From Methylomonas fluvii (GTDB lineage: Bacteria; Pseudomonadota; Gammaproteobacteria; Methylococcales; Methylomonadaceae), in NCBI RefSeq assembly GCF_014850975.1, contig NZ_JACXST010000001.1, positions 558,001 through 622,000 on the forward strand: DNA of 64,000 bases. Direction: 5' to 3'. Of the stretch, positions 35,816-52,094 are shown in pieces. The notes below the pieces were generated by a model. It was not told the DNA's origin, did not search any database, and was given only the letters and a program-made list of their open reading frames with translations. The number at the start of each line of letters is the position of its first letter. The first letter of the stretch is position 1. A program made the translations under genes and the position numbers.

Positions 35816-36442
35816 TCAGTCATTTACCAACAGTAAATAGCGTTGCCAATCTTGGTAAGTATCTACATCCCATTGACTGTCCAGTTCGTACAGGTTCAAA
35901 CCGATGTCCTTTACCCGGCTACGGGTAATGGTCATCACCTGGTCATGTCCCCAGCTCATGTCGCTAAACAATCGCGATTGCACCTGGTTTAAGCCGATCA
36001 TGACGTAACCGCCATCGTCCGCCGGCGCGATGACTGCGTCATAACCTGCGCGTAACTTTAGCAATGCCCGATGCAAATCGTCGGCGGAAAGACTGGGGCA
36101 GTCGCAACCCATCAGCACGGCGTGCTGGTATCTGCTCAATGCATCCGAGAAGGCTTGCTGCATACGTTCGCCCAAGTCGGTGCCGTGTTGTACCTTCAGA
36201 GCCAGCGGATAACGTCGCGCGCAATCCTGAAAAAAGTCATGGCCGGTGTCCGGCGCACAGTGTAGTTCCACCGCGCAGAAAGGCTGCTGAAAAGCCCGCT
36301 GCAAGGTCATGTCGGTCAACCGCCTATGGGCATGAGCCGCTTGCTCCGCGCTTAAGGCCGGTTGTAGACGGGTTTTGACTTGGCCAGGGATTGGGGCTTT
36401 GCAAAAAATCAGTAGCACGCTGTCGGGAAATGGATAAGCCAT
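35816..36442 (-). CDS. TIGR04282-type glycosyltransferase (arsenosugar-associated, DUF2064)
   Basis: This 208-residue GT-A-like nucleotidyl/glycosyl transferase has an N-terminal LLIFCKAPIPGQVKTRLQPALS and the acidic metal motif MGCDCPSLSADDL, with PADDGGYVMIGL. The family is annotated as an arsenosugar biosynthesis glycosyltransferase because it co-occurs with ArsM/ArsS. It ends a minus-strand block with a desaturase-like gene and a second glycosyltransferase (4-nt gap upstream). The role in glycosylating dimethylarsinoyl ribosides is inferred from co-occurrence. Confidence 0.85.
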   Translation of the reverse strand: MAYPFPDSVLLIFCKAPIPGQVKTRLQPALSAEQAAHAHRRLTDMTLQRAFQQPFCAVELHCAPDTGHDFFQDCARRYPLALKVQHGTDLGERMQQAFSDALSRYQHAVLMGCDCPSLSADDLHRALLKLRAGYDAVIAPADDGGYVMIGLNQVQSRLFSDMSWGHDQVMTITRSRVKDIGLNLYELDSQWDVDTYQDWQRYLLLVND

Positions 36443-36445
36443 GGC

Positions 36446-37240
36446 TCAGTGCTTGCGCAAAGGTCGAAACGGCATGGCTAATAACTGAAAGAAACCCAGC
36501 TCATGTCGGTCGCGAAATCCGTTCAAGCCAATAGTCATCTCAGCTTGTGGTTGCTGCGATTGATGGCAGTAGGTCTTGAACAGGCGGTCCCAGCACGACA
36601 AGGAAAATCCAAAATTGCTGTCGGTTTCCTGTTGCCGGGCGGAATGATGAATCCGGTGCATGTTCGGCGTGACCAACAGATAACGCAGCATCCGCTCGAC
36701 CAGCGGCGGCAGGCTGACATTACCGTGGTTGAACAACGCGCAGCCATTCAGGATGATTTCGAACGCGATGACGGCCATAGGATCGGCACCGAGTACTATC
36801 ACTAGCAATACTTTGTAAGCCATGGACAGCATGATCTCGATCGGATGAAAGCGCACCGCGGTGGAGGTGTCGAAATCAAGGTCGCTGTGGTGGACTTGAT
36901 GCAAACGCCAAAACCATTGCCAACGATGGGCTGCGACATGTTGTGCGTAAATCGCCAGATCCAGTAATAGCAGGCTGAGCAAAATATTTAGCCAACCGGG
37001 TACGGCCAGGTGATTTAACAGGCCAAGATGTTGCACCACGGCCCAGTTCGCTGCCGACCAGGCCGCCGCGCCGATGCTGATCCGCATCACGCCGACATTC
37101 AATGCCGCCAAACCGAGATTGATCAGCCAGCGTTGACGGCGAGGGATGCGCAAATGCCGCGTGGGACTTAGCGCTTCCCAAATCGCCATCAACAACAAAA
37201 TGCCGATAAACACGCCAAAGCGCAGCATGGCTTCCATCAT
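36446..37240 (-). CDS. Fatty acid hydroxylase/sterol desaturase superfamily protein
   Basis: This is a 264-residue membrane di-iron oxygenase with about four hydrophobic segments. The histidine boxes are visible: HVAAHRWQWFWRLHQVHHSDLDFD and PNMHRIHHSARQ. It is translated between the two arsenosugar-type glycosyltransferases, overlapping the upstream one by 4 bp (ATGA-like). It may modify a lipid or glycolipid, perhaps an arsenolipid precursor; the substrate cannot be read from sequence. Confidence 0.88.
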   Translation of the reverse strand: MMEAMLRFGVFIGILLLMAIWEALSPTRHLRIPRRQRWLINLGLAALNVGVMRISIGAAAWSAANWAVVQHLGLLNHLAVPGWLNILLSLLLLDLAIYAQHVAAHRWQWFWRLHQVHHSDLDFDTSTAVRFHPIEIMLSMAYKVLLVIVLGADPMAVIAFEIILNGCALFNHGNVSLPPLVERMLRYLLVTPNMHRIHHSARQQETDSNFGFSLSCWDRLFKTYCHQSQQPQAEMTIGLNGFRDRHELGFFQLLAMPFRPLRKH

Positions 37241-37920
37241 CGTCTCCCGTAATAACGCATCGCCAGATCATCTGGATCGGCACCGAAAAAATAGGCTAAG
37301 CGTAGCCGCCACATCAGTAGGATGGTTTTGCATATACCCTGCTGGAGCCAGCGCCGTTCCGAAGTCTGCACCTTGGCTTTTAAGCAACAGGGTTTACCGA
37401 GTTTTTTCAGCTTGTTGCTGATCGCAATATCTTCCATCAACGCAATCGCCGGAAATCCACCTACCGCTACAAATGCTGGTCGGGTCATGAACACCGCTTG
37501 GTCACCGGTGGCAATGCCGGTTAGCCGCGAGCGCTGATTCATCATGAAGGCAATCAATTTGAAGATGGGTTTGGGATTGTCGAATGCCACGTCGAAACGT
37601 CCCCAGTGGAATCCTTCGGCTATGGCTTGGCTAATCAAATCCATCGCATTATTCGGCAATCGGGTATCGGCATGTAAAAACAGCAGAATCTCCGCCTCAG
37701 CTTGTAAAGCGCCCGCATTCATTTGCATGGCCCGGCCGCGAGGGCCGAGTATAACCTTGTCGACCAGAGACTTCGCAATTTCCGGGCTGTCATCGTGACT
37801 GCCGCCGTCGACCAGCAGCAGTTGGCAACGATCACGAAATCCCTGCAAAGCTTGTAGTTTGCCGGCGAGATGTCCTGCCTCGTTGAGTACCGGGACAACG
37901 ATAGTGGCTTGATAAGTCAT
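37237..37920 (-). CDS. TIGR04283-type family 2 glycosyltransferase (arsenosugar-associated)
   Basis: This is a 227-residue GT2 enzyme. It has TIVVPVLNEAGHLAGKLQAL at the nucleotide site, LLLVDGGSHDDSPEIA with the first Asp motif, LFLHADTRLPNNAM as the DxD-like HADT motif and TGDQAVFMTR. It is a partner of the TIGR04282 protein at 35816 in the same transcript. The family marks arsenosugar-type loci together with ArsM and ArsS, both encoded 5-13 kb away in this window. Confidence 0.86.
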   Translation of the reverse strand: MTYQATIVVPVLNEAGHLAGKLQALQGFRDRCQLLLVDGGSHDDSPEIAKSLVDKVILGPRGRAMQMNAGALQAEAEILLFLHADTRLPNNAMDLISQAIAEGFHWGRFDVAFDNPKPIFKLIAFMMNQRSRLTGIATGDQAVFMTRPAFVAVGGFPAIALMEDIAISNKLKKLGKPCCLKAKVQTSERRWLQQGICKTILLMWRLRLAYFFGADPDDLAMRYYGRR

Positions 37921-37933
37921 TCTAATTCATCCC

Positions 37934-40084
37934 TCAGGCGTTGCGCCGCCAAGTATGATAACGGCCCAGCCATGCCAGTACGCGCTGGGGCGCGTGATTG
38001 CGCTTCCAGACGCCGGCCGCATATTTATTGGCTTCCGCCAGGGTCGGATAGATATGGATGGTGCCGAGGATTTTATTCAAGCCGATGCCGTGTTTCATCG
38101 CCAGCACGAATTCGGCCAGCAAATCGCCGGCATGTGCGCCGACAATCGTGACACCGAGAATTTTATCCTTGCCCGGCACGGTCAGCACTTTGACGGAGCC
38201 ATGAGCTTCGCCGTCGGCAATCGCCCGATCCAGGTCGGCTATGCCATAGGTAGAGACTTCATAAGCGACGTTCTGCGCTTGCGCCTCCAGTTCGTTCAAA
38301 CCGACGCGAGCGACTTCCGGATCGGTAAAGGTCGACCAGGGAATCACTGAATAATCGGTGCGAAACTTTTTGAAGGGGGCAAACAGGGCATTCACCGCCG
38401 CATACCAAGCTTGATGGGCCGCTGTGTGGGTAAACTGGTATGGCCCCGCTACATCGCCGACCGCATAAATGTTGAGGTAATTGGTTTGCTGGAATGGATT
38501 GGTGTCCAAGGTTTTGCGCGGCGACAAGGCGATGCCCAGTTCTTCCACGCCGTATCCCTGCACATTGGCCGCGCGGCCAAGCGCTACCAATACCTTGTCA
38601 AAGGCAATCCTGACCGTCTGGCCGGCATGTTCGGCCAGCAGAATATGTTCGCCGTTGTCGATGACAAAATGCTTGGCGGTGTGATTCAGCCTGACATCTA
38701 CGCCTTCCTGGCGAAACCGCGTTTGTACCGATTCGGATACGTCGACGTCTTCCCGAGCCATGAGGCGTGGCGCCATTTCCACTTGGGTGACCTGGCAACC
38801 CAGGCGATTGAAAGTTTGCGCCAGTTCGCAGCCAATCGGGCCGCCGCCCAGCACTAATAAGCACTTCGGTTTTTTTCGCAGTTGCCAGACCGTGTCGGAG
38901 GTCAGATAGTCGATATCGGCCAATCCCGGAATCGGCGGCACGAAGGGCCGGGCGCCTGCGGCGATGACGATAGCGAGGCTGGTGATAGTTTTGACGCCGT
39001 CTGTTGTCGTGACTTCCACCGCCCAGGGCGAAACGATTTTGGCCGAGCCTTCGATGACCTCCACACCCAGTTTGGTATACCGTTCGACGGAATCATGATG
39101 CGCTACGGTGTTGATCACCTGTTGCACCCGCTCCATCACGACAGCAAAATCAAATTCAACCTCGGCTTTGGCGATGCCGAACTCGGATGCACGTTTGATA
39201 TGCGACAGCAACTTGGCCGAACGAATTAGCGCCTTGGATGGCACACAGCCGGTATTCAAACAGTCGCCGCCCATTTTGTGCTTTTCGATCAGCGTGACTT
39301 TGGCTTTGACAGCAGCAGCGATATAAGCCGACACCAAACCGCCGGCGCCCGCGCCGATGACAATTAGGTTATTGTCGAAACGCGCCGGTTTGGTCCAGCG
39401 CGGGTAGACTTTGCGTTTTTGAATGACTTCTAGCATTTTCTTCGCCCCTAATGGAAACACACCAAGCAAGGCAAACGAACCCAACAAAGCCGGTGAGAGA
39501 ATAGCGGACAGGGAGTCGATTTTCGCCAACTGGGTACCGGCATTGACGTAAACCAAGGTGCCTGCCAGCATACCGACTTGGCTGACCCAGTAAAACGTTC
39601 TGGTCTTAATGGGCGTCAAACCCATCGCCAGATTGATCATGAAGAACGGGAACAACGGCACCAAACGCAAGGTAAACAAATAAAACGCGCCGTCGCGTCT
39701 TACGCCCTCGTCTATAACCTGCAAACGGGGGCCGAAGTGGGATTTGACCCAGTCGCGTAATAAAAACCGTGCAGCCAAAAATGCCAGCGTTGCACCAATG
39801 CTGGAAGCAAATGAGACGATCAGTGTCCCCCAGAGCAAACCGAACACTGCGCCACCGGCCAGCGTCAATATCGTCGCCCCTGGCAGCGACAATCCAGTGA
39901 CCGCGATATACAACGTGGCATAAGTGGCTGCCGCCAGCAATGGGTGAACCTGGCCGTAATTGGCAATGCCGGTTTGCCGGGCTTTTAAATTTTCCAGTGT
40001 CAGATAGTGCGGCAAATCCAGTGCAAAAAAAGCCGCCATCAACGCAGCAATACCCAGCAATAACAAGATTTTGGAGGTTTTCAT
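37934..40084 (-). CDS. VTT/TVP38 membrane domain fused to mercuric reductase-like flavoprotein
   Basis: This is a 716-residue fusion. Residues 1-230 form a polytopic TVP38/TMEM64 (VTT, DedA-like) domain (GLSLPGATILTLAGGAVFGLLWG). Residues about 240-716 form a pyridine nucleotide-disulfide oxidoreductase: an FAD site IVIGAGAGGLVSAYIAA, the redox pair in MGGDCLNTGCVPSKALIRSAK, the NAD site LVLGGGPIGCELAQTF and a C-terminal dimerisation domain (HIYPTLAEANKYAAG). No HMA mercury-binding domain or C-terminal vicinal Cys pair is seen, so mercury reduction is unlikely. It is divergent from the merR-type gene. The reaction is unknown; membrane-bound disulfide or quinone redox is plausible. Confidence 0.88.
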   Translation of the reverse strand: MKTSKILLLLGIAALMAAFFALDLPHYLTLENLKARQTGIANYGQVHPLLAAATYATLYIAVTGLSLPGATILTLAGGAVFGLLWGTLIVSFASSIGATLAFLAARFLLRDWVKSHFGPRLQVIDEGVRRDGAFYLFTLRLVPLFPFFMINLAMGLTPIKTRTFYWVSQVGMLAGTLVYVNAGTQLAKIDSLSAILSPALLGSFALLGVFPLGAKKMLEVIQKRKVYPRWTKPARFDNNLIVIGAGAGGLVSAYIAAAVKAKVTLIEKHKMGGDCLNTGCVPSKALIRSAKLLSHIKRASEFGIAKAEVEFDFAVVMERVQQVINTVAHHDSVERYTKLGVEVIEGSAKIVSPWAVEVTTTDGVKTITSLAIVIAAGARPFVPPIPGLADIDYLTSDTVWQLRKKPKCLLVLGGGPIGCELAQTFNRLGCQVTQVEMAPRLMAREDVDVSESVQTRFRQEGVDVRLNHTAKHFVIDNGEHILLAEHAGQTVRIAFDKVLVALGRAANVQGYGVEELGIALSPRKTLDTNPFQQTNYLNIYAVGDVAGPYQFTHTAAHQAWYAAVNALFAPFKKFRTDYSVIPWSTFTDPEVARVGLNELEAQAQNVAYEVSTYGIADLDRAIADGEAHGSVKVLTVPGKDKILGVTIVGAHAGDLLAEFVLAMKHGIGLNKILGTIHIYPTLAEANKYAAGVWKRNHAPQRVLAWLGRYHTWRRNA

Positions 40085-40364
40085 GCAAACTTACCGCTTC
40101 TGAGTGGGTGAGGCTTCAATGGGTGTTTGCATGTTGTCTGGGTAAACATCTACGTTCCTTAAATACTGTTGGGCTTGCCTGTTAGTCGTGTTTGTCTGTC
40201 ATTCCTGACAACGATCTCAGCAAATCTAATTTCACCAGCTTAATAAACATCATCGCCGCTTAGTAGATAAAGATGTTTGCAGGCATTTCAGGTAGGCAAA
40301 ATTTGTGTTCGGTTGATGCAATACCTACACTATGTGACGTCTACTTTATATTTTGTCACCCATT

Positions 40365-40859
40365 ATGCGCCTGCCGCCTAAACACCAGCGCGATGTTCTT
40401 AAAATCGGTGAAGTGGCCGACGAACTCGGCACTACGCCAAGAACGATTCGCCTGTACGAGGAACTAGGACTGATCGTCCCCGACCGCACCGAAGGCGGCA
40501 CACGTCTTTATGCCCGGAAAGATTTGAAGCGCATGGCTATCGCGTTGCAGCTTGGTCGTGTCGGTATCGAATTGGAATCAGTACAAAAGCTAGCTCAAAC
40601 CCGGCAGCTATGTGCTTCCGGGAAAGAAGCATCAGCCGCGATGCAGCCACTCCTGCATGATTTGCGCAGCAGAATACGGGGATTGTTGGATGATCTGGAG
40701 GAACTGGATCGCGATCTGGAGCGGGCGGACATGTTGATCCGCCAATGCGGGAATTGCGCCAATCGCCCCAATCGCCAGGATTGCCCGGAATGTCCGGTGA
40801 ATAAAAACGTCGATTTGACAAGCATAGGGCGCCTGGTTTGGGATCCCAGTTGTCCGTAA
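40365..40859 (+). CDS. MerR-family regulator with Cys-rich C-terminus
   Basis: This 164-residue regulator has the MerR winged helix (VLKIGEVADELGTTPRTIRLYEELGLIVPDRTEGGTRLYARKDL), a coiled-coil dimerisation region and a Cys-rich end (QCGNCANRPNRQDCPECPV). The end has two CxxC pairs that could bind a metal or sense redox state. It is divergent from the VTT-reductase fusion (280-bp gap) and is the natural candidate to control it. The ATG at 40365 is chosen over a TTG at 40353. Confidence 0.88.
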   Translation: MRLPPKHQRDVLKIGEVADELGTTPRTIRLYEELGLIVPDRTEGGTRLYARKDLKRMAIALQLGRVGIELESVQKLAQTRQLCASGKEASAAMQPLLHDLRSRIRGLLDDLEELDRDLERADMLIRQCGNCANRPNRQDCPECPVNKNVDLTSIGRLVWDPSCP

Positions 40860-42693: not shown

Positions 42694-43656
42694 TCAGGCC
42701 AAGGCCCCGCCGCAACTGCTGCCTTGGCCGGCGGTACAACCGTAACAATGGGCGGCGGTGGCGATCGGTGCGTCTTGCAGTTGTGCGAGCGACAACTCGC
42801 TGATATGTAGTCTGGGTTTGGCTACGGCGCCTAATGGCAAATCCAGCATCTGATTGAAATCACAGTCGTAGACGTAGCCTTGCCAGTCGATGCTGAGGGT
42901 ATTTAGGCACATCAGGTTTTCAAGGTTGTCGGCGCGAAAGCTGCTTTTCAGTAAAGTCAGATAAGATTCGAAGCGGCCATGGCTGATCAAGGTGCTGCCG
43001 AAACGCTGAATCGGCATGTTGGCGATGGCAAACAGGCGGTTGAAGACGATGCCGTAGTGTTGCTGCAAGTGCTGTTTGTATGCTTGTTCCAGTTGCTGCT
43101 GGTCAGGCGGCAACACGGCGTCTTGTGGGTTGAAAACCAAATTCAACTCCAACCCGCTGTCAGGCTGACCATAACCCAAGCGATTCAGGCGCTGCAAGGC
43201 TGCCAGACTGTCTTTGAACACGCCTTTGCCGCGTTGTTTGTCGACATTGTCTTCCAAATAACATGGTAAGGAAGCCACAATCTGTACCTGCTGCAGAGCT
43301 AAAAAATCTGCCAAGTCTTCGTAACCGGGCGCTTCCAGAATAGTCAGATTGCAACGGTCAATTACCTCGATGCCAAGATCACGCGCGGCTCGCACCAGAT
43401 ACCGAAAATCGGCATGCATTTCCGGTGCGCCGCCGGTCAAATCCAGCGTGTGAATGTTAGCGGCTTCGGCCAAAGCCAGTACCTGATCAACGGTCTCCCG
43501 TCTCATCATCTCGGTGCGATTGGGGCCGGCATTGACATGGCAATGCACGCAACTCAGATTGCACAAATAGCCCAGATTGACTTGCAAGACTTCCAACGGC
43601 TTGCGGAATAGGGCCGGAAAGTCGCTGTCGATCAGCAGAGGTTTGGTGTCGTGCAT
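42694..43656 (-). CDS. arsS: Arsenosugar biosynthesis radical SAM protein ArsS
   Basis: This is a 320-residue radical SAM enzyme. The cluster motif is CNLSCVHCHV (CxxxCxxC), followed by LTGGAPEMH. The C-terminal Cys-rich region (MCLNTLSIDWQGYVYDCDF, CYGCTAGQGSSCGG) would bind an auxiliary cluster. ArsS adds a 5'-deoxyadenosyl unit to dimethylarsenite on the way to arsenosugars. It is the last gene of the operon that begins with bufA, with 2 nt between its ATG and the previous stop. That placement ties arsenosugar synthesis to the bufferin genes. Confidence 0.92.
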   Translation of the reverse strand: MHDTKPLLIDSDFPALFRKPLEVLQVNLGYLCNLSCVHCHVNAGPNRTEMMRRETVDQVLALAEAANIHTLDLTGGAPEMHADFRYLVRAARDLGIEVIDRCNLTILEAPGYEDLADFLALQQVQIVASLPCYLEDNVDKQRGKGVFKDSLAALQRLNRLGYGQPDSGLELNLVFNPQDAVLPPDQQQLEQAYKQHLQQHYGIVFNRLFAIANMPIQRFGSTLISHGRFESYLTLLKSSFRADNLENLMCLNTLSIDWQGYVYDCDFNQMLDLPLGAVAKPRLHISELSLAQLQDAPIATAAHCYGCTAGQGSSCGGALA

Positions 43657-43658
43657 GC

Positions 43659-44306
43659 TTAGTCCTTGGAAAACCAGATGTCGCCGTAAACAGCAGACAC
43701 CGAGCCATTGCTATTGTCGGTATCGGTCATGATGGCGACGGCATCGATAGTGCTGATGTCTTCACCGAATAGTTTCTTGAAATCGGCCCGGACATTGCGT
43801 TTTTCGGCTTGCCAAACATTTAGTGAGGCTTCCGGCCCGTGTAAAGCCATCATCATCGCATGATCACCGGCAAAAGCATTAGGCCAGACTGTATCCTTTT
43901 TTGTGTTACCGGCCCAAACATAATTGATGGCCTTGGTTTGCCAAAACGCCAGCCCGCCTTTGACCACCACATACACCCGCGCCGCGTAATCGTCGCCTGC
44001 CTTGCTTTGTTCATTCAAGCCGGTCAAACGATTGCCGATGCGCCACGACCAGTTCAGGAACGGGGTTTGTTCCAGGTCGATGACTTGCTCTTTGAACATG
44101 CCGGAACCGGCGGCACGACTATCGGCCGTCAATACCGTCACGCCATCGACAGCTTGTAGACGGTATTGAGTTTCGCCTTTGAAGCTTTTATGCTCCCAAC
44201 CCTCCAGGCGATTTTGGCTGAATTCGCCGATAGGCAATTTGTTATCGGCAACCGCCGCGTGATTTAGCGAGAGCATCGTTAAAAATATCCACCAGAATTT
44301 TTTCAT
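43659..44306 (-). CDS. DUF3047 exported protein
   Basis: This 215-residue protein has an N-terminal signal peptide (MKKFWWIFLTMLSLNHAAVA). A beta-rich periplasmic domain typical of DUF3047 follows (PFLNWSWRIGN, DYAARVYVVVKGG, VWPNAFAGDHAM). The function of the family is unknown. It lies between the doxX-type gene (2-nt gap) and arsS (2-nt gap), so it is made with the bufferin and arsenosugar proteins and may bind a carbohydrate or metal ligand in the periplasm. Confidence 0.85.
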   Translation of the reverse strand: MKKFWWIFLTMLSLNHAAVADNKLPIGEFSQNRLEGWEHKSFKGETQYRLQAVDGVTVLTADSRAAGSGMFKEQVIDLEQTPFLNWSWRIGNRLTGLNEQSKAGDDYAARVYVVVKGGLAFWQTKAINYVWAGNTKKDTVWPNAFAGDHAMMMALHGPEASLNVWQAEKRNVRADFKKLFGEDISTIDAVAIMTDTDNSNGSVSAVYGDIWFSKD

Positions 44307-44308
44307 GT

Positions 44309-44863
44309 TTAATCTGCTGTGCGTTGTTTCAACCCATTATCAATAGCCAAGCCGCCACTGCCACTCAGCATCAGCGAACCGAGCATGAACAAATAAACCA
44401 ACGGCAATTTGTAATTGCCATAACCTTGATCGGTGATGGCATAGCCTTTCCATAATTCGGCCAGCGTGTGCCATTCGGCTGGCCAATGCACGGCGGCGAT
44501 GGCAACCACGGTCAACACCATCAACGCCGCACTGAAAAAGCGGGTCATGAATCCCAGTATCAACGCAATTGGGGCGATGATTTCTATACCGGTTGCCAAG
44601 GTCCAACTAAAGTCCGTGGGCAATATGCTGAACGGAAATGGGAAGCTCAGGTCGGCAAACCAATTCTCGCCATGGAGTTTTTCCAGGCCGGCTTCGCCGA
44701 ACTCGTAAGCCAGCAACAGACGAAGAAAAATTGGCGCCAGGCCCTGTAAGTTTCTGTCGAAATAGCCAGAAAGCCAGTTTGGCATAGTACATAGCCGTTC
44801 GATACAGGAAGGAATCAAACAGGCTTTACAAGGGGCTTGGACGGATTTAGCGAGGTCGTTCAT
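44309..44863 (-). CDS. DoxX-family membrane protein of the bufferin operon
   Basis: This 184-residue protein has about four transmembrane helices of the DoxX type (IFLRLLLAYEFGEAGLEKLHGENWF, ALILGFMTRFFSAALMVLTVVAI). The N-terminal 40 residues carry four Cys (CKACLIPSCIERLC), an unusual addition. DoxX genes are standard members of hvf/buf clusters. The ATG at 44863 overlaps the bufC stop (ATGA); a longer in-frame start at 44884 would lie inside bufC. It may supply electrons or help move the modified peptide. Confidence 0.85.
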   Translation of the reverse strand: MNDLAKSVQAPCKACLIPSCIERLCTMPNWLSGYFDRNLQGLAPIFLRLLLAYEFGEAGLEKLHGENWFADLSFPFPFSILPTDFSWTLATGIEIIAPIALILGFMTRFFSAALMVLTVVAIAAVHWPAEWHTLAELWKGYAITDQGYGNYKLPLVYLFMLGSLMLSGSGGLAIDNGLKQRTAD

Positions 44864-45642
44864 GAGTGAGGCTCCAAAGTCCAAACCGGGCGAATGTCGA
44901 TAATCGCGCCCTGGCTATGTAGATCGACCAGAATCTGCTGACCGAATTGCGTGAGTTCTAAAAATGGCGCGTCTGGGAGTTCGCCGCCACTCATGGCTTG
45001 CAAGGCCTGTTGCCCGGTCAAGCCGTTATTTAACAACAGGATCAGCTTGGCTGTGGCCATATTCAGGGTTACAAACTGCACTTGATCATCGCTATCGCGA
45101 AAACCCAGGATATGAATTGCCGTGGTCTGTGGTTCGCTAGGCAAAAAGTTTGGTCCAATGTCCTGCACCGGCCATTGGTAGCACAGCAATTGCATGACCG
45201 GTGCAAACACAGGCACATTGGCCAGTAATTCGGCATCGGACAACTGCTTTCGCGTGACCGGCTCCGCCTCGGCAATTGACAGCTGTAATTCGATCCATTC
45301 GAACTGCGCCAGTTCGGCCAGAAACGGCCAATCATCCAGATGCTCACGTTCCTGTTGCAGATACTGCAAAAATTCGTCGGGAATCTGCCGGTAATACGGC
45401 GTCAGGCAGCGATGTTTTGCGATGAAATTCAGCAGCAACGCCCGCCATTTATCTTTAGATAATATGCTGCAGATGACCGGAAAGCAGGCCGTCAGGCTCT
45501 CGTCGAATTTGTTATAGAGCAGATCGACATACACGGCCAGTCTCTCAGGGGCGAAGCCTGCAGGTAGCTGCGCTGTTTGCGGTTGCCGCAAGTAATGCAG
45601 AAACTGCCGTTGCTGCTGTTGAAAAGCCGGTGTTGGGTTCAT
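44860..45642 (-). CDS. bufC: BufC/HvfC-type DUF2063 partner protein
   Basis: This 260-residue protein starts with the DUF2063 segment FLHYLRQPQTAQLPAGFAPERLAVYVDLLYNKFDESL. It also has FLQYLQQEREHLDDWPFLAELAQFEWIEL. DUF2063 proteins bind the RiPP precursor and present it to the MNIO enzyme. Its ATG overlaps the bufB stop (ATGA), matching the usual A-B-C order of bufferin loci. Confidence 0.92.
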   Translation of the reverse strand: MNPTPAFQQQQRQFLHYLRQPQTAQLPAGFAPERLAVYVDLLYNKFDESLTACFPVICSILSKDKWRALLLNFIAKHRCLTPYYRQIPDEFLQYLQQEREHLDDWPFLAELAQFEWIELQLSIAEAEPVTRKQLSDAELLANVPVFAPVMQLLCYQWPVQDIGPNFLPSEPQTTAIHILGFRDSDDQVQFVTLNMATAKLILLLNNGLTGQQALQAMSGGELPDAPFLELTQFGQQILVDLHSQGAIIDIRPVWTLEPHS

Positions 45643-46511
45643 GCCGCCTCCTCGCTGAGGACATGTGCGTTGCGGCAGAGCCGATGAGTATTTTGCAAGT
45701 CACGAATCCGTTCTACTTCGACCAATAACTCGGCCAAGGGTGGAATATTGCTATCCCGTTCCACTAAGGTCGGAAACACGCCAAAACTTCGATAAGCCTC
45801 GGCCAGCAAGTCCCAAACCGGTGCTATGGTATTCTGGCCGTGGGTGTCGATGATCAAGCCGGATGGCTCCAGGTCGTGACCGGCCACATGCCCATAAACG
45901 ATGCGCTCGCCGGGCAAGCCGCGTAAAAACGCCACCGGATCGTAGCCGTGGTTAACGCTGTTGACATAAATATTGTTCACATCCAGATGCAGGTAACAGT
46001 CGGCTTCGGCCAATACCGCATTGATGAAAGTCAGTTCGTCCATCTCCGCCTGTGGCGGCTGCACGTAGTAAGAGGCGTTTTCCAAAGCAATCGGTCGTTC
46101 CAGAATCTCCTGAGTCTGGCGAATCCGGTCGGCGACATGTTTGACCGCCTGTTCGGTAAACGGGATCGGGTATAAGTCGTAAAAATGGCCTTCGTCGCTG
46201 CAAAAACTCAAGTGTTCGGTGTACAGGGCAAAATCGTGACGATCGAGAAATTGTTTCAGTTCGCCTAAAAAGCCGGTATCGAGCGGCGCGGGGCCGCCCA
46301 ACGACAAGGCCAAACCGTGCGCCACGAAACGGTGACGCTCGGTCAGACTGCGAAATTGCTTGCCGAGCTGACCGCCGACGCCCACCCAGTTTTCCGGCGA
46401 GACTTCAAAAAAATCGATGCCGTTCGGTACGCCGGTTTGCAACGCGGGCAACAGCGCCCGGCGCAAACCCAAACCGGAACCCGCAAGGCCGAAAGGATAG
46501 TCAGTGGTCAT
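45639..46511 (-). CDS. bufB: BufB/HvfB multinuclear non-heme iron oxidase (DUF692)
   Basis: This 290-residue TIM-barrel enzyme of the MNIO (DUF692) family modifies cysteines of the precursor peptide, forming thioamide, oxazolone or thiooxazole groups. Iron ligands are seen in FFEVSPENWVG, RFVAHGLALSLGG, YTEHLSF, ALENASYYV, HLDVNNIYVNSVNHG, GHVAGH and LVERDSNIPP. The start is the ATG at 46511, 16 bp after the bufA stop; a longer frame to 46610 runs into bufA and is discounted. Confidence 0.94.
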   Translation of the reverse strand: MTTDYPFGLAGSGLGLRRALLPALQTGVPNGIDFFEVSPENWVGVGGQLGKQFRSLTERHRFVAHGLALSLGGPAPLDTGFLGELKQFLDRHDFALYTEHLSFCSDEGHFYDLYPIPFTEQAVKHVADRIRQTQEILERPIALENASYYVQPPQAEMDELTFINAVLAEADCYLHLDVNNIYVNSVNHGYDPVAFLRGLPGERIVYGHVAGHDLEPSGLIIDTHGQNTIAPVWDLLAEAYRSFGVFPTLVERDSNIPPLAELLVEVERIRDLQNTHRLCRNAHVLSEEAA

Positions 46512-46527: not shown

Positions 46528-46854
46528 TTATTTCGCGGTTTTACCGCTGCAACCCCCTTCAAGCATCTTGCCGCTACAACCGGCTTCCGGCATTTTGGCA
46601 CTGCAACCACCCTCGGCGCCTTTCATGTCTTTCATTTTGTTGGCGCCGCATTTGCCTTCACCACATTTACCTTCCTTCATCTTTGCGCTGCAACCGGCTT
46701 CGGCAGACTTGCCGTCCGCCGCAGCCAATTGTTGAGAGGGATTGATGCTGGACATCGCAAACGGATTTTCGCCGGCTTGAATGACGGGCGCCGCGCTCAT
46801 CAATGTTGAAGCCAACGCGCTGCTTAATGTCAAAGACAAGGTTTTTTTGTTCAT
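46528..46854 (-). CDS. bufA: Bufferin/HvfA-type RiPP precursor
   Basis: This is a 108-residue precursor with a signal peptide (residues 1-27, MNKKTLSLTLSSALASTLMS). The core has six Cys (55, 64, 69, 84, 93, 102). EGKCGEGKCG (61-70) is the modification motif of HvfA-like peptides. Four GCS(A/G)K units surround it (54-58, 83-87, 92-96, 101-105). MNIO-modified bufferins bind copper in the periplasm. It is transcribed from an ECF-type promoter at 46917-46943 and heads the bufA-B-C-doxX-DUF3047-arsS operon. Confidence 0.9.
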   Translation of the reverse strand: MNKKTLSLTLSSALASTLMSAAPVIQAGENPFAMSSINPSQQLAAADGKSAEAGCSAKMKEGKCGEGKCGANKMKDMKGAEGGCSAKMPEAGCSGKMLEGGCSGKTAK

Positions 46855-46916
46855 GGTGTTCTCTCCGGTAGGTTAATGAATGATCAGGACAAGCAACAAT
46901 GCTTTCCTACCTCATC

Positions 46917-46943
46917 AGTCGGAGTCGGTTTGGATTCCTTACA
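46917..46943 (-). promoter_or_regulatory. ECF-type promoter for bufA
   Basis: Minus strand: TGTAAGGAA (46943-46935), 13 nt, CGACT (46921-46917), about 60 bp before the bufA ATG. The same pair precedes the HD-GYP gene and the PiT gene. The likely reader is the ECF sigma factor encoded at 48976-49581. Confidence 0.7.
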
Positions 46944-46998
46944 AAATGTTTCGTCCTGTGTACGCATGAAGTCAGCGTTAAGAAACTTCAAAGCATAT

Positions 46999-47026
46999 TG
47001 TAAGGAAAATCGGTTAAGTTGCGACT
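46999..47026 (+). promoter_or_regulatory. ECF-type promoter for the HD-GYP gene
   Basis: Plus strand: TGTAAGGAA (46999-47007), 14 nt, CGACT (47022-47026), 55 bp before the ATG at 47082. It is divergent from, and matches, the bufA promoter. Confidence 0.65.
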
Positions 47027-47081
47027 TAATCAATGGTCAAGCCCCATCCATTCAGATTGATTCATCGAACAAGGACAAGCC

Positions 47082-47978
47082 ATGAAAAATATCCATACAC
47101 AGGATTTATTGCATACGCTCTACAGCATGGCCTTTCTGGTTGAAGCCCGCGATCCTTATACCGGTGGGCATCTATGGCGAGTGTCGCAGTATTCGACGCG
47201 GCTGGCTTTGGCGTGTGGATTTTCTAAACAGGACGCCGTGGTTGCCGGGCTGGGCGGCTTTTTACATGACTTGGGCAAGGTTGGCGTACCGGACAGCATT
47301 CTCAACCATACCGGCAAGCTTAGCGATGCGGAATATGCTGTAATGAAAACCCATCCGGCCCTGGGGGCGCAGGTATTACAAGGGCATCCCTTGGCGCCGT
47401 TGGCGATGGATGCTGTGTTAAGCCACCATGAGCGCATTGATGGCCGGGGCTATCCGTCCGGTTTAAGCGGCCGAAAGATTGCAGAAACCGCTCGCATCGT
47501 CGGTATCGCCGATGCCTTCGATGCGATGACCAGCACTCGGCCTTATCGTAAGGGTATGCCGTTGGCGGCGGCCATTGAGCAGATCGAGGCAAATTTGGAT
47601 AAACAATTTGATCTGCATTTCGGCCGCCGCTTCATCGAATTGGCACAAGCCAATGAGCTGGATGGCATCATCGGACATAGCGATACTGGTATACCGATGC
47701 ACGAATGCCCGATGTGCGGCCCAGTAGTGACGGTGCATAAACACCAGAAAGCCGGCGACAAGGTCTTCTGCCGGGTGTGTGGCAATGGCTTTGCTCTGGA
47801 AAAGCAGCAAGGCAAACTGGCACTGAAACCAACGATGCAAAAAGGCAGCGCGCAGGATTTACAAGCGCTGATTGATCATGATTTGCTGGCAAGATTGCTG
47901 GAGGAATCGCTGCCGTATTTACCGGTCGAAAGTGGCAACGGCAAAAGCTGGCTGCGGCGACTGCGGGACAGGCTCTGA
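47082..47978 (+). CDS. HD-GYP domain phosphodiesterase with zinc ribbon
   Basis: This 298-residue cytosolic protein has an HD-GYP domain with FLHDLGKVGVPDSILNH, HHERIDGRGYPSGLSG and ADAFDAMTSTRPYRK, predicted to hydrolyse cyclic-di-GMP. Residues about 205-235 add a zinc-ribbon pattern (HECPMCGP and FCRVCGNG). It has no receiver or sensor domain. Its promoter shares the ECF motif of bufA and the PiT operon, so it may lower c-di-GMP during the same stress response. Confidence 0.9.
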   Translation: MKNIHTQDLLHTLYSMAFLVEARDPYTGGHLWRVSQYSTRLALACGFSKQDAVVAGLGGFLHDLGKVGVPDSILNHTGKLSDAEYAVMKTHPALGAQVLQGHPLAPLAMDAVLSHHERIDGRGYPSGLSGRKIAETARIVGIADAFDAMTSTRPYRKGMPLAAAIEQIEANLDKQFDLHFGRRFIELAQANELDGIIGHSDTGIPMHECPMCGPVVTVHKHQKAGDKVFCRVCGNGFALEKQQGKLALKPTMQKGSAQDLQALIDHDLLARLLEESLPYLPVESGNGKSWLRRLRDRL

Positions 47979-48137
47979 ATCAGGCTCCGCAGCAACACCC
48001 GGCCTGTTTGCCATGCAACTGCATCGGCGGACATGAGAATGCTTCCATCGCTACATAAGGAGGTACCTTAACGGCTGACCGCTAGCCCGTTGCCGTAAAC
48101 TCGCAAGGGTCTGTCGCTTTCGAAACGGGGAGTTGGT

Positions 48138-48656
48138 TTAGTGTTTAACTGGCGGAGGCGGTGTATAGCGATGGTCGAGAATGTTATCAATCTTGACTGT
48201 CAAGCTTTCAACTGCTTTTATCGTCAATTCAGCATTAGGCCCTTTCGATTCTGAAATGAATTTGCCCACTAGCTGAGCGTCTTTAACTCGTACTAAATTC
48301 CCCATTAGGTAAGCAAACAAAAAACTTGGTTTGTGCAATCTTCCTACTAGCACATAGTCGGCATCAAATTTTTTACCTAACTGGGCCGCGACATCGGCAT
48401 GATCAAACAGATAACCCACTCCACTATCGGCTTCTTGTTGTGCGGGTAAAGGAATATTGACGATCTGATACCCGGCAGATCGCAATTCACCTTCTAGCAA
48501 TGGTTTTATGGAGGTGGTGCGCTTGATTTCCGCTGGGACACCGGGCTTCAATGTTAAATCTTTTAACTCAAACTCAAGTACGGCAAGGCTTGGAGCCGCC
48601 TGTAAATTAATACTCATTAAGCCAAAAGACAGAAAAACAATAAGATTTTGTCTCAT
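48138..48656 (-). CDS. DUF2380-type exported protein
   Basis: This 172-residue protein has a signal peptide (MRQNLIVFLSFGLMSINLQAA). The following domain (LAVLEFELKDLTL, PLLEGELRSAGYQIVNIP, AAQLGKKFDADYVLVGRLHKPSFLFAYLM) resembles DUF2380. The C-terminus ends in PPPPVKH. The fold resembles outer-membrane-associated lipoproteins of the CsgG type, but there is no lipobox. It stands alone with no obvious partner; function is unknown. Confidence 0.75.
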   Translation of the reverse strand: MRQNLIVFLSFGLMSINLQAAPSLAVLEFELKDLTLKPGVPAEIKRTTSIKPLLEGELRSAGYQIVNIPLPAQQEADSGVGYLFDHADVAAQLGKKFDADYVLVGRLHKPSFLFAYLMGNLVRVKDAQLVGKFISESKGPNAELTIKAVESLTVKIDNILDHRYTPPPPVKH

Positions 48657-48776
48657 AAACAGTTACTCAATAGTCATGTGGGGGGGCTCTACTCTAATTT
48701 TAATGGCTACAACTCGTTAGCAAGATTTGAGCACAATCGGACATTATCGGTAAAACATGAGTAACTTCAATGGTTG

Positions 48777-48983
48777 TTATGTTTCGGTTTTGTTATCCGG
48801 CTGATGATGCAAATTTTTGATATAGCCTTTTGCTGCTCGACGGATAAATTGGGATTGGCTCTGGAAGTTACGGCAGCTGGAACACATCATCACATGCAAG
48901 CCTATCGCCAGGCGTTCGCCCAAGCTAAGTTTCTTGTCCAAGCCCTGAGACACCAGGGCAGTAATATCGCGACAACTACGCAT
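48777..48983 (-). CDS. Zinc-finger anti-sigma factor (zf-HC2-like)
   Basis: This 68-residue protein has the zinc-binding anti-sigma motif HVMMCSSC (H-x3-C-x2-C) preceded by DITALVSQGLDKKLSLGERLAIGL. There is no transmembrane segment, so it should bind the sigma factor in the cytosol and release it on metal or thiol stress. Its ATG lies 8 bp inside the sigma gene. Confidence 0.85.
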   Translation of the reverse strand: MRSCRDITALVSQGLDKKLSLGERLAIGLHVMMCSSCRNFQSQSQFIRRAAKGYIKNLHHQPDNKTET

Positions 48984-49581
48984 GGTTGTTCTCCTTTTTT
49001 GTTTTCGGTTGATTGAACCAGCGAATTTCCAGGCACTCCCGCAATCGCAAGCGGGCGCGGTGCATGGTGACCCAGTAATTGGCGTCGCTGATGCCCGCTT
49101 CCTGGCAGACTTCGTCGGTGTCCAGGCCGACCAATTCCCTAAGCATGAACACCTGGGCCATTTTGGCGGGTAGATTGTTATGGCAGGTTTCGTAAATGGT
49201 CCAAAATTCCTGCTGCTTGAATGCCGCTTCGGGATCGTTCCAGGTGCTGGGGCCGCCGTTCCAATGGCCATTGCTCATGAAAAACGCATCTTCATCGGAT
49301 TCGTCCTCATCGTTATCGATTTGATCGAACTCGGCGGTGACGACTTCACGCGCACTGCGCCGCCAGTGATCGGCGATCTTGTGCTTCAGAATGCCGATCA
49401 GCCAGGTCCGCAAGCCGGCCCTGCCTTCGAAATTCGCGGACGCTTGCCAAGCGGCCAATAACGTTTCCTGCACCGCGTCGTCGGCCAGTTCGCTATCTTT
49501 GAGTTGCAGCAATGCATAGCGAAACAGCACGGGGCGATGCTCGGCCAGCAAGGCTTCGTTCAATTGATCGGGTGGGTTCAT
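48976..49581 (-). CDS. ECF RNA polymerase sigma factor
   Basis: This 201-residue sigma-70 of ECF type has region 2 (LFRYALLQLKDSELADDAVQETLLAAWQ, GRAGLRTWLIGILKHKIADHWRR) and region 4 (LPAKMAQVFMLRELVGLDTDEVCQEAGISDANYWVTMHRARLRLRE). A linker of acidic residues separates the regions. The ATG at 49581 is used; one at 49599 is possible. It begins inside the end of arsM (about 10-bp staggered region) and is followed by its zinc anti-sigma, so it is read from the PiT promoter, which carries its own motif (autoregulation). Confidence 0.93.
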   Translation of the reverse strand: MNPPDQLNEALLAEHRPVLFRYALLQLKDSELADDAVQETLLAAWQASANFEGRAGLRTWLIGILKHKIADHWRRSAREVVTAEFDQIDNDEDESDEDAFFMSNGHWNGGPSTWNDPEAAFKQQEFWTIYETCHNNLPAKMAQVFMLRELVGLDTDEVCQEAGISDANYWVTMHRARLRLRECLEIRWFNQPKTKKENNHA

Positions 49582-49589
49582 CTCGGCGC

Positions 49590-50633
49590 TCAGCAACATG
49601 GGCTATCGGATTTTCCACCTTCATGGTCAGGTCCGGGCGTGCAATCGAACAACCCGAAATGTCGGGATTTATCGCCCATTACTTGAAAGTGAGCACTATA
49701 TCGGCTGCTCGCCAGCATATCGGCGGTATTGCCGCAGACCCTTAACGGCCGGCCGGTTTCGAAATGATGATGATCGTCCAGATCGAAGCTGTGCGGATGT
49801 TGGTCAACAGTGCCCAAATAGACGGCGACTTGGCCGAAGTCTTCGCAACGGTCCTCCAAAGGCATTTTGAATGCGCGCACCGTGACCGAATCGAATTTGA
49901 CCATGCCGATTTTGGCGAACACCTCGGGATCGTCAATGCTGATAGCATTTTGCTTGACCTTACGAACATCGGGGCAGCCCAAATTCTGCAAAATACGTCG
50001 GAAGTCTTCCCAGTACAAAGCGCCGCCCAAACACTCGCCTAGCAACACCGGATCCTGGCGCAGTTCAGCCGGGATACGACGATCGGCAAATACATCGGAA
50101 AAATACAGCTCACCGCCTGGTTTCAGCACTCGAAATATTTCCGCGAGCACCTTGGGCTTTTCCGGCGAGAGGTTGATCACGCAATTGGAAACTACGACAT
50201 CGATGCTGTTATCGGCAATACCCACGGTGTGCAAATTTTCAATATGGCCGAGCAGAAACTCCACATTGGCAAAGCCAAACTGTTCGGCATGCCAGTCGCG
50301 ATGACGCATGGCGACTTCCAGCTGTTCTGGGGTCATATCGACGCCGATCACCCGGCCTTTCGGTCCGACCAGTTTCGACAGTAAATAACAATCCCGGCCG
50401 CTTCCGCAGCCCAAATCCAGCACGGTCTTACCTTCCAAGGCTGGCGGCAACGGCGAGCCGCAGCCGTAAAAGCGTTCCAGCACTTCCGGATGCAAGCCGG
50501 CCAGCAGCGCTTTTAAATAAGTCGGCATAGCATCGATGCTGCAACAGGCGCTGGTTTTCAGGTCGCTGCTGGATTGCAGCACCTGCCCGTAATAGTGCTG
50601 GACGGATTCGCTGATTTCGAGGGTGGTGGTCAT
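49590..50633 (-). CDS. arsM: Arsenite methyltransferase ArsM
   Basis: This 347-residue SAM methyltransferase has VLDLGCGSGRDCYLLSKLVGPKG at motif I. The arsenic-binding Cys are seen in RFYGCGSPLP, VSNCVINLSPEK and LGECLGGALYWEDF, the ArsM pattern, and SACCSID adds an N-terminal pair. It converts As(III) to methylated species that can be volatilised or passed to ArsS. It follows the PiT gene by 19 nt and overlaps the sigma gene. A C-terminal CC ends the protein. Confidence 0.94.
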   Translation of the reverse strand: MTTTLEISESVQHYYGQVLQSSSDLKTSACCSIDAMPTYLKALLAGLHPEVLERFYGCGSPLPPALEGKTVLDLGCGSGRDCYLLSKLVGPKGRVIGVDMTPEQLEVAMRHRDWHAEQFGFANVEFLLGHIENLHTVGIADNSIDVVVSNCVINLSPEKPKVLAEIFRVLKPGGELYFSDVFADRRIPAELRQDPVLLGECLGGALYWEDFRRILQNLGCPDVRKVKQNAISIDDPEVFAKIGMVKFDSVTVRAFKMPLEDRCEDFGQVAVYLGTVDQHPHSFDLDDHHHFETGRPLRVCGNTADMLASSRYSAHFQVMGDKSRHFGLFDCTPGPDHEGGKSDSPCC

Positions 50634-50652
50634 GAGAGCGCTCGTATTTTTA

Positions 50653-51777
50653 TTATTGAAGATAGGCGTTTAGGTAGTATGAGATTGCGGCAGAACAGAT
50701 AGCCGCACACGGCAAGGTCAGCAACCAGGATAAGGCAATCGACGTGATCACGCCTGAATTGGCCCTGCCGCTGACTAAACCAATACCGAATAATGAACCC
50801 ACCGAAACATGGGTAGTGGAAACCGGCATGCCAAGCTTGCTGGCAAAAATGACTAACAGTGCCGTAACCAGATTAGCCGATAAACCTTGTTCATGCGTGA
50901 TGGTGGTGATTTTATGACTCATGGTTTCCGCTACCCGCCGTGCATTGAACACCCCACCCAACATCATCGCCGTCGCAACCAGGATAATGATCCAATGCAA
51001 ATCAAAACCGGGGGCCAGCAATAACAAGGCGGCAATTTTCGGTGTGTCGTTCAGGCCGCGCGCAAAACAAACCGCACCGGCGCTGCAAAAATGCAGGCCG
51101 TCACGCAGACGCTCCAGATTAAAGCCCAAAGCTAGGCTAGATTGTCGCTCGACGCAAGCCTCTTTACTATCAAGGCTTAAAGATGGAACGATTGCCGAAT
51201 CGATTGCCAGGGTCATATGGGCGTTACTGGCCAGCGCCAGACTTTCCGGATTTTCAATGCATAAACAGAGGTTGTTAGTGAGTTGGCTACGGTTACGCCA
51301 ACTACTCAGACCTCGATACAATAAGCCGGCGAACAATAACGCCACAAACGGACTCAATAGTAATGGCAGCACGAAGTTGCTCAGCAACGGTGCCAGACTG
51401 ATATTGCCGGATGTCGCTAATAGTGTGCTACCCGCCATGGCGCCTAATAAAGCATGGGTCGTGGAAATCGGAAAGCCGTAACGCGTCGCTAGAATCACTG
51501 TCATTCCAGCACCACCTGCGACGGCAATCATGAACGGTAACGTGTGTATCAATTCGTCCGGCGCCAAGCCTTTACCGGAAAACTTGACCAGCAAAGTCTG
51601 AGCTAAAAACAATGCTGTAATCGAACCGGCCAAGGTTGTCAACGACGCCCAGGTCAATGCCTGACGAAAATTGGCGGTGTCGCTGCCGAACAAACTCGCC
51701 ACACCCTTGAAGTTGTCATTGGCGCCGTTGGCATAGGCCAGAAAGCAAACGCTGATAAATAATATGCTGGTGAGCAT
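50653..51777 (-). CDS. PiT-family inorganic phosphate transporter
   Basis: This 374-residue polytopic protein starts with YANGANDNFKGVASLFGS, the PiT signature. It has a second copy of the motif (ARGLNDTPKIAALLLLAPG), TTHALLGA and STTHVSVG. It imports phosphate with cations and can also take up arsenate. Its place upstream of arsM and the sigma factor suggests a link to arsenic or phosphate stress. An ECF-type promoter precedes it. Confidence 0.93.
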   Translation of the reverse strand: MLTSILFISVCFLAYANGANDNFKGVASLFGSDTANFRQALTWASLTTLAGSITALFLAQTLLVKFSGKGLAPDELIHTLPFMIAVAGGAGMTVILATRYGFPISTTHALLGAMAGSTLLATSGNISLAPLLSNFVLPLLLSPFVALLFAGLLYRGLSSWRNRSQLTNNLCLCIENPESLALASNAHMTLAIDSAIVPSLSLDSKEACVERQSSLALGFNLERLRDGLHFCSAGAVCFARGLNDTPKIAALLLLAPGFDLHWIIILVATAMMLGGVFNARRVAETMSHKITTITHEQGLSANLVTALLVIFASKLGMPVSTTHVSVGSLFGIGLVSGRANSGVITSIALSWLLTLPCAAICSAAISYYLNAYLQ

Positions 51778-52094
51778 GAAAAATATCCTGGATTGGGTCG
51801 ACTATTTGTTCTAAGTCGTTAGGAGAGGATCAAACCTTACATAAAATATTCTGTATTCGGGAAATCGATAATATGCCCTGATGTTAAGCAACATCGTAAG
51901 TTGCATGATGGGTTGTTTTTCCGAAATTGGCTAGACCTAGCCAATGACGGCGTTACAGAGCCACTGTTAAAAATGCCTAACTGTCCGATTTCAATGCCCT
52001 AAGCACGTTAAATCTTGGTTTCACCCACGAGCATTCTTGTTATGCATGCCGAAAGCAATCTCGTCAGGATTTTCAAGGGATGCCAATCTGCTGT
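51778..52094. promoter_or_regulatory. Intergenic region: ECF promoter for PiT operon plus 20-bp palindrome
   Basis: This 317-bp region lies upstream of the PiT gene. Minus strand: TGTAAGGTT (51841-51833), 14 nt, CGACT (51818-51814), 37 bp before the PiT ATG; it matches the bufA and HD-GYP promoters. Further away is a perfect dyad ATTGGCTAG-AC-CTAGCCAAT (51926-51945), of unknown binder. No gene is seen here. Confidence 0.65.

Follow-up and report, generated by a model that had tools for sequence, protein, structure and literature searches.

Are the near-identical sequence elements that lie before three separate transcription units in a 64,000-nucleotide (nt) stretch of the Methylomonas fluvii genome (positions 558,001 to 622,000 of contig NZ_JACXST010000001.1, hereafter the window; genome of 5.59 Mb in 4 contigs) the promoters of a single regulon, and if so, what would that regulon do? 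The element, TGTAAGG-N15/16-CGACT, precedes an operon for a ribosomally synthesized and post-translationally modified peptide (RiPP) headed by hvfA, a gene for an HD-GYP protein, and an operon that encodes a transporter, an ArsM-like methyltransferase, an extracytoplasmic function (ECF) sigma factor and an anti-sigma. Judging from sequence comparisons, we think it highly probable that these sites are promoters of that sigma factor (48976-49599), which would drive at least four units under an anti-sigma switch. The sites and the sigma operon are as follows.

46917..46943, minus strand: predicted ECF promoter of the hvfA operon, TGTAAGG-N15-CGACT, exact, 62 nt before hvfA
46999..47026, plus strand: predicted ECF promoter of the HD-GYP gene, TGTAAGG-N16-CGACT, exact, 55 nt before the gene
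51814..51841, minus strand: predicted ECF promoter of the PiT-arsM-sigma-anti-sigma operon, TGTAAGG-N16-CGACT, exact, 36 nt before PiT
50653..51777, minus strand: PiT-family transporter (PF01384)
49590..50633, minus strand: arsM-like methyltransferase (best match NF008823, 205.5 bits, below the cut-off of 263)
48976..49599, minus strand: ECF sigma factor with W176 in its recognition helix (TIGR02943, 230.7 against a cut-off of 162.2)
48777..48983, minus strand: 68-aa anti-sigma with C4, H30, C34 and C37 (NF052368, 78 against a cut-off of 50)

All three sites are where the initial annotation had placed them. Even with a looser gap of 10-22 nt, the window holds 3 matches, against 0.03 expected from shuffled sequence. 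The third site had been said to drive an operon with an ECF sigma and a zinc anti-sigma, and by family matches the gene order is PiT, arsM-like, sigma, anti-sigma. The anti-sigma is a zf-HC2 protein whose C4, H30, C34 and C37 are kept in 92 of the 92 relatives with a match (95 loci searched), and many cysteines of the ArsM-like protein are kept in 26-27 of 29 aligned copies. The nearest named relatives of the sigma protein, taking the best seven, are Methylococcaceae and Methylomonas records at 83-89% identity; solved structures yielded only 5 distant sigma relatives and no match for the anti-sigma.

We looked for the motif in relatives at 30 loci that had been retrieved with the sigma protein as the sole query. 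L069 runs out at the end of its contig, which left 29 loci to be scored over the 450 nt that precede the leading gene of the sigma operon. The motif was exact in 24 of the 29 and had one mismatch in 3 more, and exact sites were found whichever gene leads the operon (PiT, 14/15; arsM, 5/6; the sigma gene itself, 5/8). Upstream of hvfA it was exact in 17 of 18 relatives, and in neither scan did the reversed pattern come closer than two mismatches. HD-GYP orthologues, window included, have a site in 7/7 cases (exact in 4, off by one base in 3), a list that takes in loci chosen for holding the motif (L096-L123), which were left out of the 24/29 and 17/18 counts; orthologues at 88% identity or above occur in only 6 of the 37 genomes of the genus. 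The back-to-back arrangement that the hvfA and HD-GYP sites have in the window recurs in L068, L072, L089, L384 and L385.

Between the two fixed halves, the spacer letters diverge (8 distinct spacers before PiT, 13 before hvfA). Only the first three letters are constant, TTT in the 8 PiT spacers and AAT in the 13 hvfA spacers, together with two more columns before PiT; at the hvfA site of L094/L120 the spacer begins with TTT rather than AAT. Exact sites persist where the sigma is just 70-75% identical to the window's (L089, L090, L091, L093). A count of gapped 5-mer pairs that was blind to the motif, made over the 29 sigma-operon upstreams (window included), put GTAAG-N17-CGACT at the top with 22/29, tied with the overlapping TAAGG-N16-CGACT, and the best pair in one shuffle set reached 2. 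The equivalent count over 15 hvfA upstreams placed CGACT-N8-AGGAA, which pairs the -10 with a leader element, first (15/15), ahead of the -35/-10 pair AAGGA-N14-CGACT (11/15).

The sigma protein itself appears to carry a matching signal. Eight loci whose sigma is 48-54% identical to the window's (L376-L383) have no TGTAAGG; 6 of the 8 have TGTAACA-N15-CGACT, and the genomes of the remaining two carry this form in separate hvf loci (L342, L352). Among the first 30 loci, TGTAACA was found 0 times against 52 for TGTAAGG. Sigmas diverged to 38-45% (L384-L390, L393-L395) have TGTAAGG sites in 7 of 10 loci, and L391 and L392, short loci with arginine at the residue discussed next, have neither form. 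In an alignment of 50 sigmas, with loci typed by any exact match, coding or not (one L385 site is inside the sigma gene), residue 176 was W in 35/35 AAGG loci (window included) and R in 6/6 AACA loci; the 9 loci with neither promoter form comprised 5 W and 4 R. Structure alignments place residue 176 opposite a recognition-helix lysine of two other sigmas. The switch between AAGG and AACA in the promoter thus appears to track the W/R exchange in the recognition helix, with evidence limited by the relatedness of the loci. Outside the family, the sigmas of four loci that have hvf genes with AAGG-type sites (L288, L290, L298, L317) also have W at this position, which across 43 outside-family sigmas is W in 26, H in 6, S in 5, Y in 5 and R in 1.

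What, then, would this sigma factor control? The two units that diverge from the back-to-back sites consist of these genes.

46528..46854, minus strand: hvfA, RiPP precursor with an EGKCG repeat (NF050137, 24 bits against a cut-off of 19.5)
45639..46511, minus strand: hvfB, MNIO maturase (NF003818, 402.9 against 360)
44860..45642, minus strand: hvfC, maturation partner (NF050145, 245 against 142)
44309..44884, minus strand: hvfX, DoxX-family protein, start codon uncertain (NF050144, 120.7 against 80)
43659..44306, minus strand: DUF3047 protein (PF11249)
42694..43656, minus strand: arsS, arsenosugar radical SAM enzyme, with which the hvf operon ends (TIGR04167, 464.3 against 300)
47082..47978, plus strand: HD-GYP protein with a C-terminal four-cysteine ribbon (PF13487)

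Neighbouring genes of hvfA-hvfB-hvfC-hvfX-DUF3047-arsS either overlap or lie 2 to 16 nt apart. A bufferin-like RiPP had been proposed here. The RiPP precursor is indeed present, and its type is HvfA/oxazolin rather than DUF2282 bufferin: the HvfA repeat, HvfB, HvfC and HvfX are all over their NCBIfam cut-offs, and the precursor has no Pfam match, DUF2282 of Buf1 included, at E 0.001. All four families of the HvfABCX oxazolin or 5-thiooxazole metallophore clusters are therefore in the window; unlike those clusters, the window operon continues into DUF3047 and ArsS, and because of this continuation the arsenic branch looks like arsenosugar biosynthesis. The sigmaE operon of Neisseria holds an HvfC-type gene, and the Pfam domain of the window's HvfC, named NGO1945_C, is in keeping with this. 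The HD, HH and four Cys of the HD-GYP protein are kept in 11/11 orthologues. As minor observations, its CxxC...CxxC ribbon shows weak similarity to LysW, and the hvfA leaders share, after the -10, the CGACT-N8-AGGAA element counted above (window 46890-46920; 15/15 upstreams).

The association of the sigma with hvf genes extends across the family. Orthologues of hvfB have an exact site within 800 nt in 17 of 30 loci; the other 13 comprise 3 with TGTAAGG farther off (L345, L348, L350), 8 with TGTAACA and 2 with neither, one of these at a contig end (L351) and the other searched over 800 nt only (L332). As a control we used a second MNIO gene, 55-60% identical to hvfB and widespread in the family, for which the site was found in 0 of 20 loci, the best match having 3 mismatches. 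Across 201 family genomes, the sigma is present in 82 (E 1e-30) and an hvfB orthologue in 37, a set hand-picked from the similarity list; the sigma occurs in 35 of these 37 and in 47 of the 164 others (Fisher p 3.6e-14, not corrected for relatedness). A small control of arsenosugar loci from genomes that lack the sigma (L324, L325) showed no site, except for one relaxed match opposite arsM in L325.

In two relatives (L378, L379), the units that the initial annotation had joined by promoter letters are physically one cluster. On a single strand, hvfA, hvfB, hvfC, PiT, two arsenosugar glycosyltransferases, DUF3047 and TVP38-MerA (in two pieces) are followed by arsS, and then by the arsM-like gene, HD-GYP, hvfX, sigma and anti-sigma; hvfC and PiT overlap in L379. 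L380 keeps this gene order, but several of the genes were found only in part or not at all. This linkage is evidence independent of the motif. The three loci belong to the clade with the diverged sigma and TGTAACA-CGACT. Unrelated genes (an AraC-type regulator, a GST and others) lie in the middle of the joined cluster, a DUF547 gene has a second TGTAACA site before it, the arsM copy is a distant relative at 33-34% identity, and the fatty-acid hydroxylase of the window (below) was not seen in the L378/L379 cluster. We also note one in-frame stop in the L379 arsS (13479-14423) where the window protein has Trp, which could reflect decay, recoding or assembly error.

The fourth candidate unit of the window adds further arsenosugar genes.

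40184..40210, minus strand: fourth site, TGTCAGG-N15-CGACT, differing from the motif at one base, with the TVP38-MerA gene 99 nt downstream
37934..40084, minus strand: TVP38 (VTT) domain fused to a MerA-like disulfide reductase (PF09335, PF07992)
37237..37920, minus strand: arsenosugar glycosyltransferase family (TIGR04283, 262.6 against a cut-off of 182)
36446..37240, minus strand: fatty-acid hydroxylase family protein (PF04116)
35816..36442, minus strand: arsenosugar glycosyltransferase family (TIGR04282, 197.6 against a cut-off of 134)

Two scans of the genome that allowed one mismatch gave totals, exact sites among them, of 26 and 11, where the control gave 38 and 19. The single one-mismatch site that we retained is that at 40184-40210, because orthologues carry a matching one. 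Among 18 testable TVP38-MerA orthologues, window included, a one-mismatch site lies 99-117 nt upstream in 10 of the 11 that have no arsS just upstream, and in 0 of the 7 that begin 3-53 nt after arsS, so that the gene is mostly found either within an arsS operon or with a site of its own. The site is exact in L080 and L384; in L091 a site precedes a DUF547-like gene that lies before TVP38-MerA. At the mismatched base, the Neisseria -35 consensus allows A or C (PMC2893595, here and below in excerpt). The initial annotation had predicted arsenic methylation; ArsS and the arsenosugar glycosyltransferases, which it overlooked, would extend the branch beyond methylation alone. A MerR-family gene (window 40353-40859) is the divergent neighbour of the TVP38-MerA operon, in whose regulation it may share.

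Site conservation before each unit, sigma/promoter covariation, sigma/hvfB co-occurrence and the collinear clusters with sigma all favour what had been predicted from the window's letters, namely a single autoregulated ECF regulon of RiPP, HD-GYP, PiT and arsM genes. A small, apparently cytosolic zinc-associated anti-sigma (ZAS) would keep the sigma inactive until thiol-reactive stress disturbs its metal site; candidate agents are arsenite, copper(I) and oxidants, for instance hypochlorite. The freed sigma would then read TGTAAGG / CGACT and transcribe PiT-arsM-sigma-anti-sigma (a positive feedback), hvfABCX-DUF3047-arsS, HD-GYP, and TVP38-MerA-glycosyltransferase-hydroxylase-glycosyltransferase. 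The hvf products would make a periplasmic Cu-binding peptide of the oxazolin type, the HvfA product probably binding Cu(I), as oxazolin does (PMC12452194, in excerpt). From arsenite, PiT, ArsM, ArsS and the glycosyltransferases would lead through methylated arsenic and an adenosyl-derived arsenosugar to the glycosylated form of that sugar; the parts given here to PiT and HD-GYP are presumed.

The switch is of a known kind, and it is the arsenic targets that appear new. For N. meningitidis sigmaE, the consensus is GTMAGBWTT / CGTCTAAH with a spacer of 12-13 (PMC2893595). The ECF operon there is autoregulated, the anti-sigma MseR has Cys4, His30, Cys34 and Cys37 at positions identical to those in the window protein, and the -35 GTAAGGTT and the spacing resemble those of the window sites. 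The PiT site, GTAAGGTTT-N13-CGACT, fits the Neisseria -35 and spacing, with A instead of T as the third base of the -10 (CGACT against CGTCT); the hvfA site differs from the -35 consensus at one base and the HD-GYP site at two, and the spacer counted in the Neisseria way is 12 (hvfA) or 13 (PiT). The sigma operon promoter as a target in its own right, a mark of the Neisseria type, is likewise suggested here by motif conservation within the family. The direct target reported in Neisseria besides the operon itself is msrAB, whereas the predicted targets in the window are arsenosugar genes, PiT and HD-GYP; the excerpted text leaves the inducer of the meningococcal switch open (PMC2893595). In H. 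influenzae the ECF sigma RpoE2 is likewise paired with a ZAS anti-sigma, HrsE, a cytoplasmic protein of 67 aa, but that system answers to hypochlorite, has msrAB and a DMT transporter as its targets, and is only weakly autoregulated (PMC7907618, in excerpt). In Caulobacter, the ECF sigma sigmaF (of the ECF16 sigmaF/NrsF type) drives DUF2282-DUF692-DUF2063-DoxX RiPP operons under metal stress, but its anti-sigma NrsF is a DUF1109 protein with six membrane helices, unlike the 68-aa zf-HC2 protein found here, and its site is GTAACC-N16-CGAA (PMC3511200, in excerpt). The ArsM/ArsS arsenosugar pathway is matched by ArsS and two glycosyltransferase families over cut-off; it differs in that the window genes are predicted to share a sigma factor with a RiPP and in the score of ArsM. 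The main texts of two MNIO papers (PMC13097082, PMC12452194) hold no word beginning with "arsen". Among the literature matches listed, no title or abstract joins arsenosugar genes with a RiPP/sigma regulon, and none of those listed for arsenosugar plus MNIO terms holds "arsenosugar".

A bolder idea, which we regard as unlikely, is that the oxazolin-type peptide and the arsenosugar pathway form a single biosynthetic or detoxification system, in which the HvfA peptide would handle arsenic or its methylated intermediates, or be linked to an organoarsenical, and arsenite would be sensed directly by the zinc anti-sigma. The hvf-arsS operon of the window, the one-strand L378/L379 cluster and the hvfC-PiT overlap would then be its genetic trace.

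Several other explanations of the sites themselves have to be set against the regulon of the neighbouring sigma. Another sigma of the genome might read the motif, the neighbouring one being merely a co-regulated target. The genome offers 33 sigma70-family matches over cut-off, and two genomes with an hvfB orthologue (G581 and G567, 80 and 87% complete) have no match to the sigma; we nevertheless consider this improbable, given the co-occurrence in 35/37 genomes and the W176/AAGG versus R/AACA partition, which falls in the neighbouring sigma itself. That an ordinary transcription factor binds TGTAAGG and CGACT as its two half-sites is very improbable: as -35/-10 elements they are predictions from the letters, which leaves room for this view, but their spacing and letters are close to those of the Neisseria sigmaE promoter (PMC2893595) and the -35 half changes along with the sigma recognition helix. 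Exceedingly improbable, in our estimate, is that the similarity is chance or inherited non-coding sequence without present function. The spacers diverge while both halves stay fixed, exact sites persist at 70-75% sigma identity, and the paralogue control gave 0/20. What feeds this last explanation is the whole-genome search that the initial annotation had proposed: it recovered the three window sites among 5 matches (N14-17), with no excess over the reversed control (3). The CGWCT variant gave 5 against 4, and across the 37 genomes of the genus, 27 of which have a match, the sums were 63 real and 69 control matches. We therefore dropped raw genome-wide counting as evidence, and the case rests on position, recurrence before the same genes and spacer divergence. 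One of the two further genome sites (C1:891165) lies opposite a coding open reading frame, with near-identical letters recurring in several genomes; the other (C2:707220) is on contig 2, where a second arsM follows after 514 nt, and could be left over from a duplication.

Besides these counts and the many sigmas, a number of observations weigh against the regulon of the neighbouring sigma as we propose it. There is no site before the sigma operon in L094 and L095 (2/29), before hvfA in L086, or close to TVP38-MerA in L167, L075 and L091, and the fourth site of the window has a mismatch. When 350 nt upstream were scanned, the reversed pattern came once to 1 mismatch (L067 hvfA) and shuffled sequences did so a few times. 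The loci are kindred and their counts not independent, and the W/R change may be a single evolutionary event; L319, the sole outside-family sigma with a relaxed site, has H at the key position. The arsM-like score is below its model cut-off. At the second arsenosugar locus, the DUF3047-arsS-TVP38MerA-glycosyltransferase operon on the opposite strand has no relaxed site. Outside the family, the relaxed motif was found before the sigma gene in 1/44 loci, arsS in 1/12, PiT in 0/4, TVP38-MerA in 0/4 and HD-GYP in 0/2, so that autoregulation through the motif is supported within the family only; a test for such autoregulation across the class did not bear it out. In many class-level loci a relaxed dyad lies 72-155 nt ahead of the anti-sigma gene, but judged by position these dyads fall within the sigma gene, as was noted for L384 and L385, and we rejected them as codon coincidence.

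The gene association reaches farther than the motif. Of 369 genomes searched in the class, 46 have a sigma relative at E 1e-20 and 180 have an ArsS that scores over cut-off. The sigma neighbourhoods examined at class level number 44, a set from which the window's own and that of G374 are excluded; within about 9 kb, 11 of them have an arsS of at least 59% identity and 7 have hvfB, and 2 more have an arsM match without arsS (L292; L313, weak). The relaxed motif precedes hvfA in 3 of 4 loci outside the family, and L282, from another family, has an hvfB-hvfC-TVP38MerA-arsS-sigma neighbourhood.

Methane oxidisers depend on copper. The proposed regulon would tie them to possible organoarsenical production and offers a harmless and culturable test bed, in a methanotroph, for a switch of the sigmaE/MseR kind; one laboratory methanotroph with the system is Methylomonas sp. 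LW13 (locus L074). With copper-peptide and arsenosugar genes under such a switch, a thiophilic metal or metalloid becomes a concrete candidate signal. The promoter code and its matched sigma residue could also be used to find further regulon members.

The second arsenosugar locus of the genome (G000 contig C2:704500-722000; L006, L322) contains the arsM copy with its TGTAAGG site, and between the two we noticed by eye an apparent remnant of a PiT end. Also by eye, the motif in relatives stands before genes for a PstS-like phosphate-binding protein, a MerA-like disulfide reductase and a DUF547-like protein (L087 5262, L084 11111, L091 15708).

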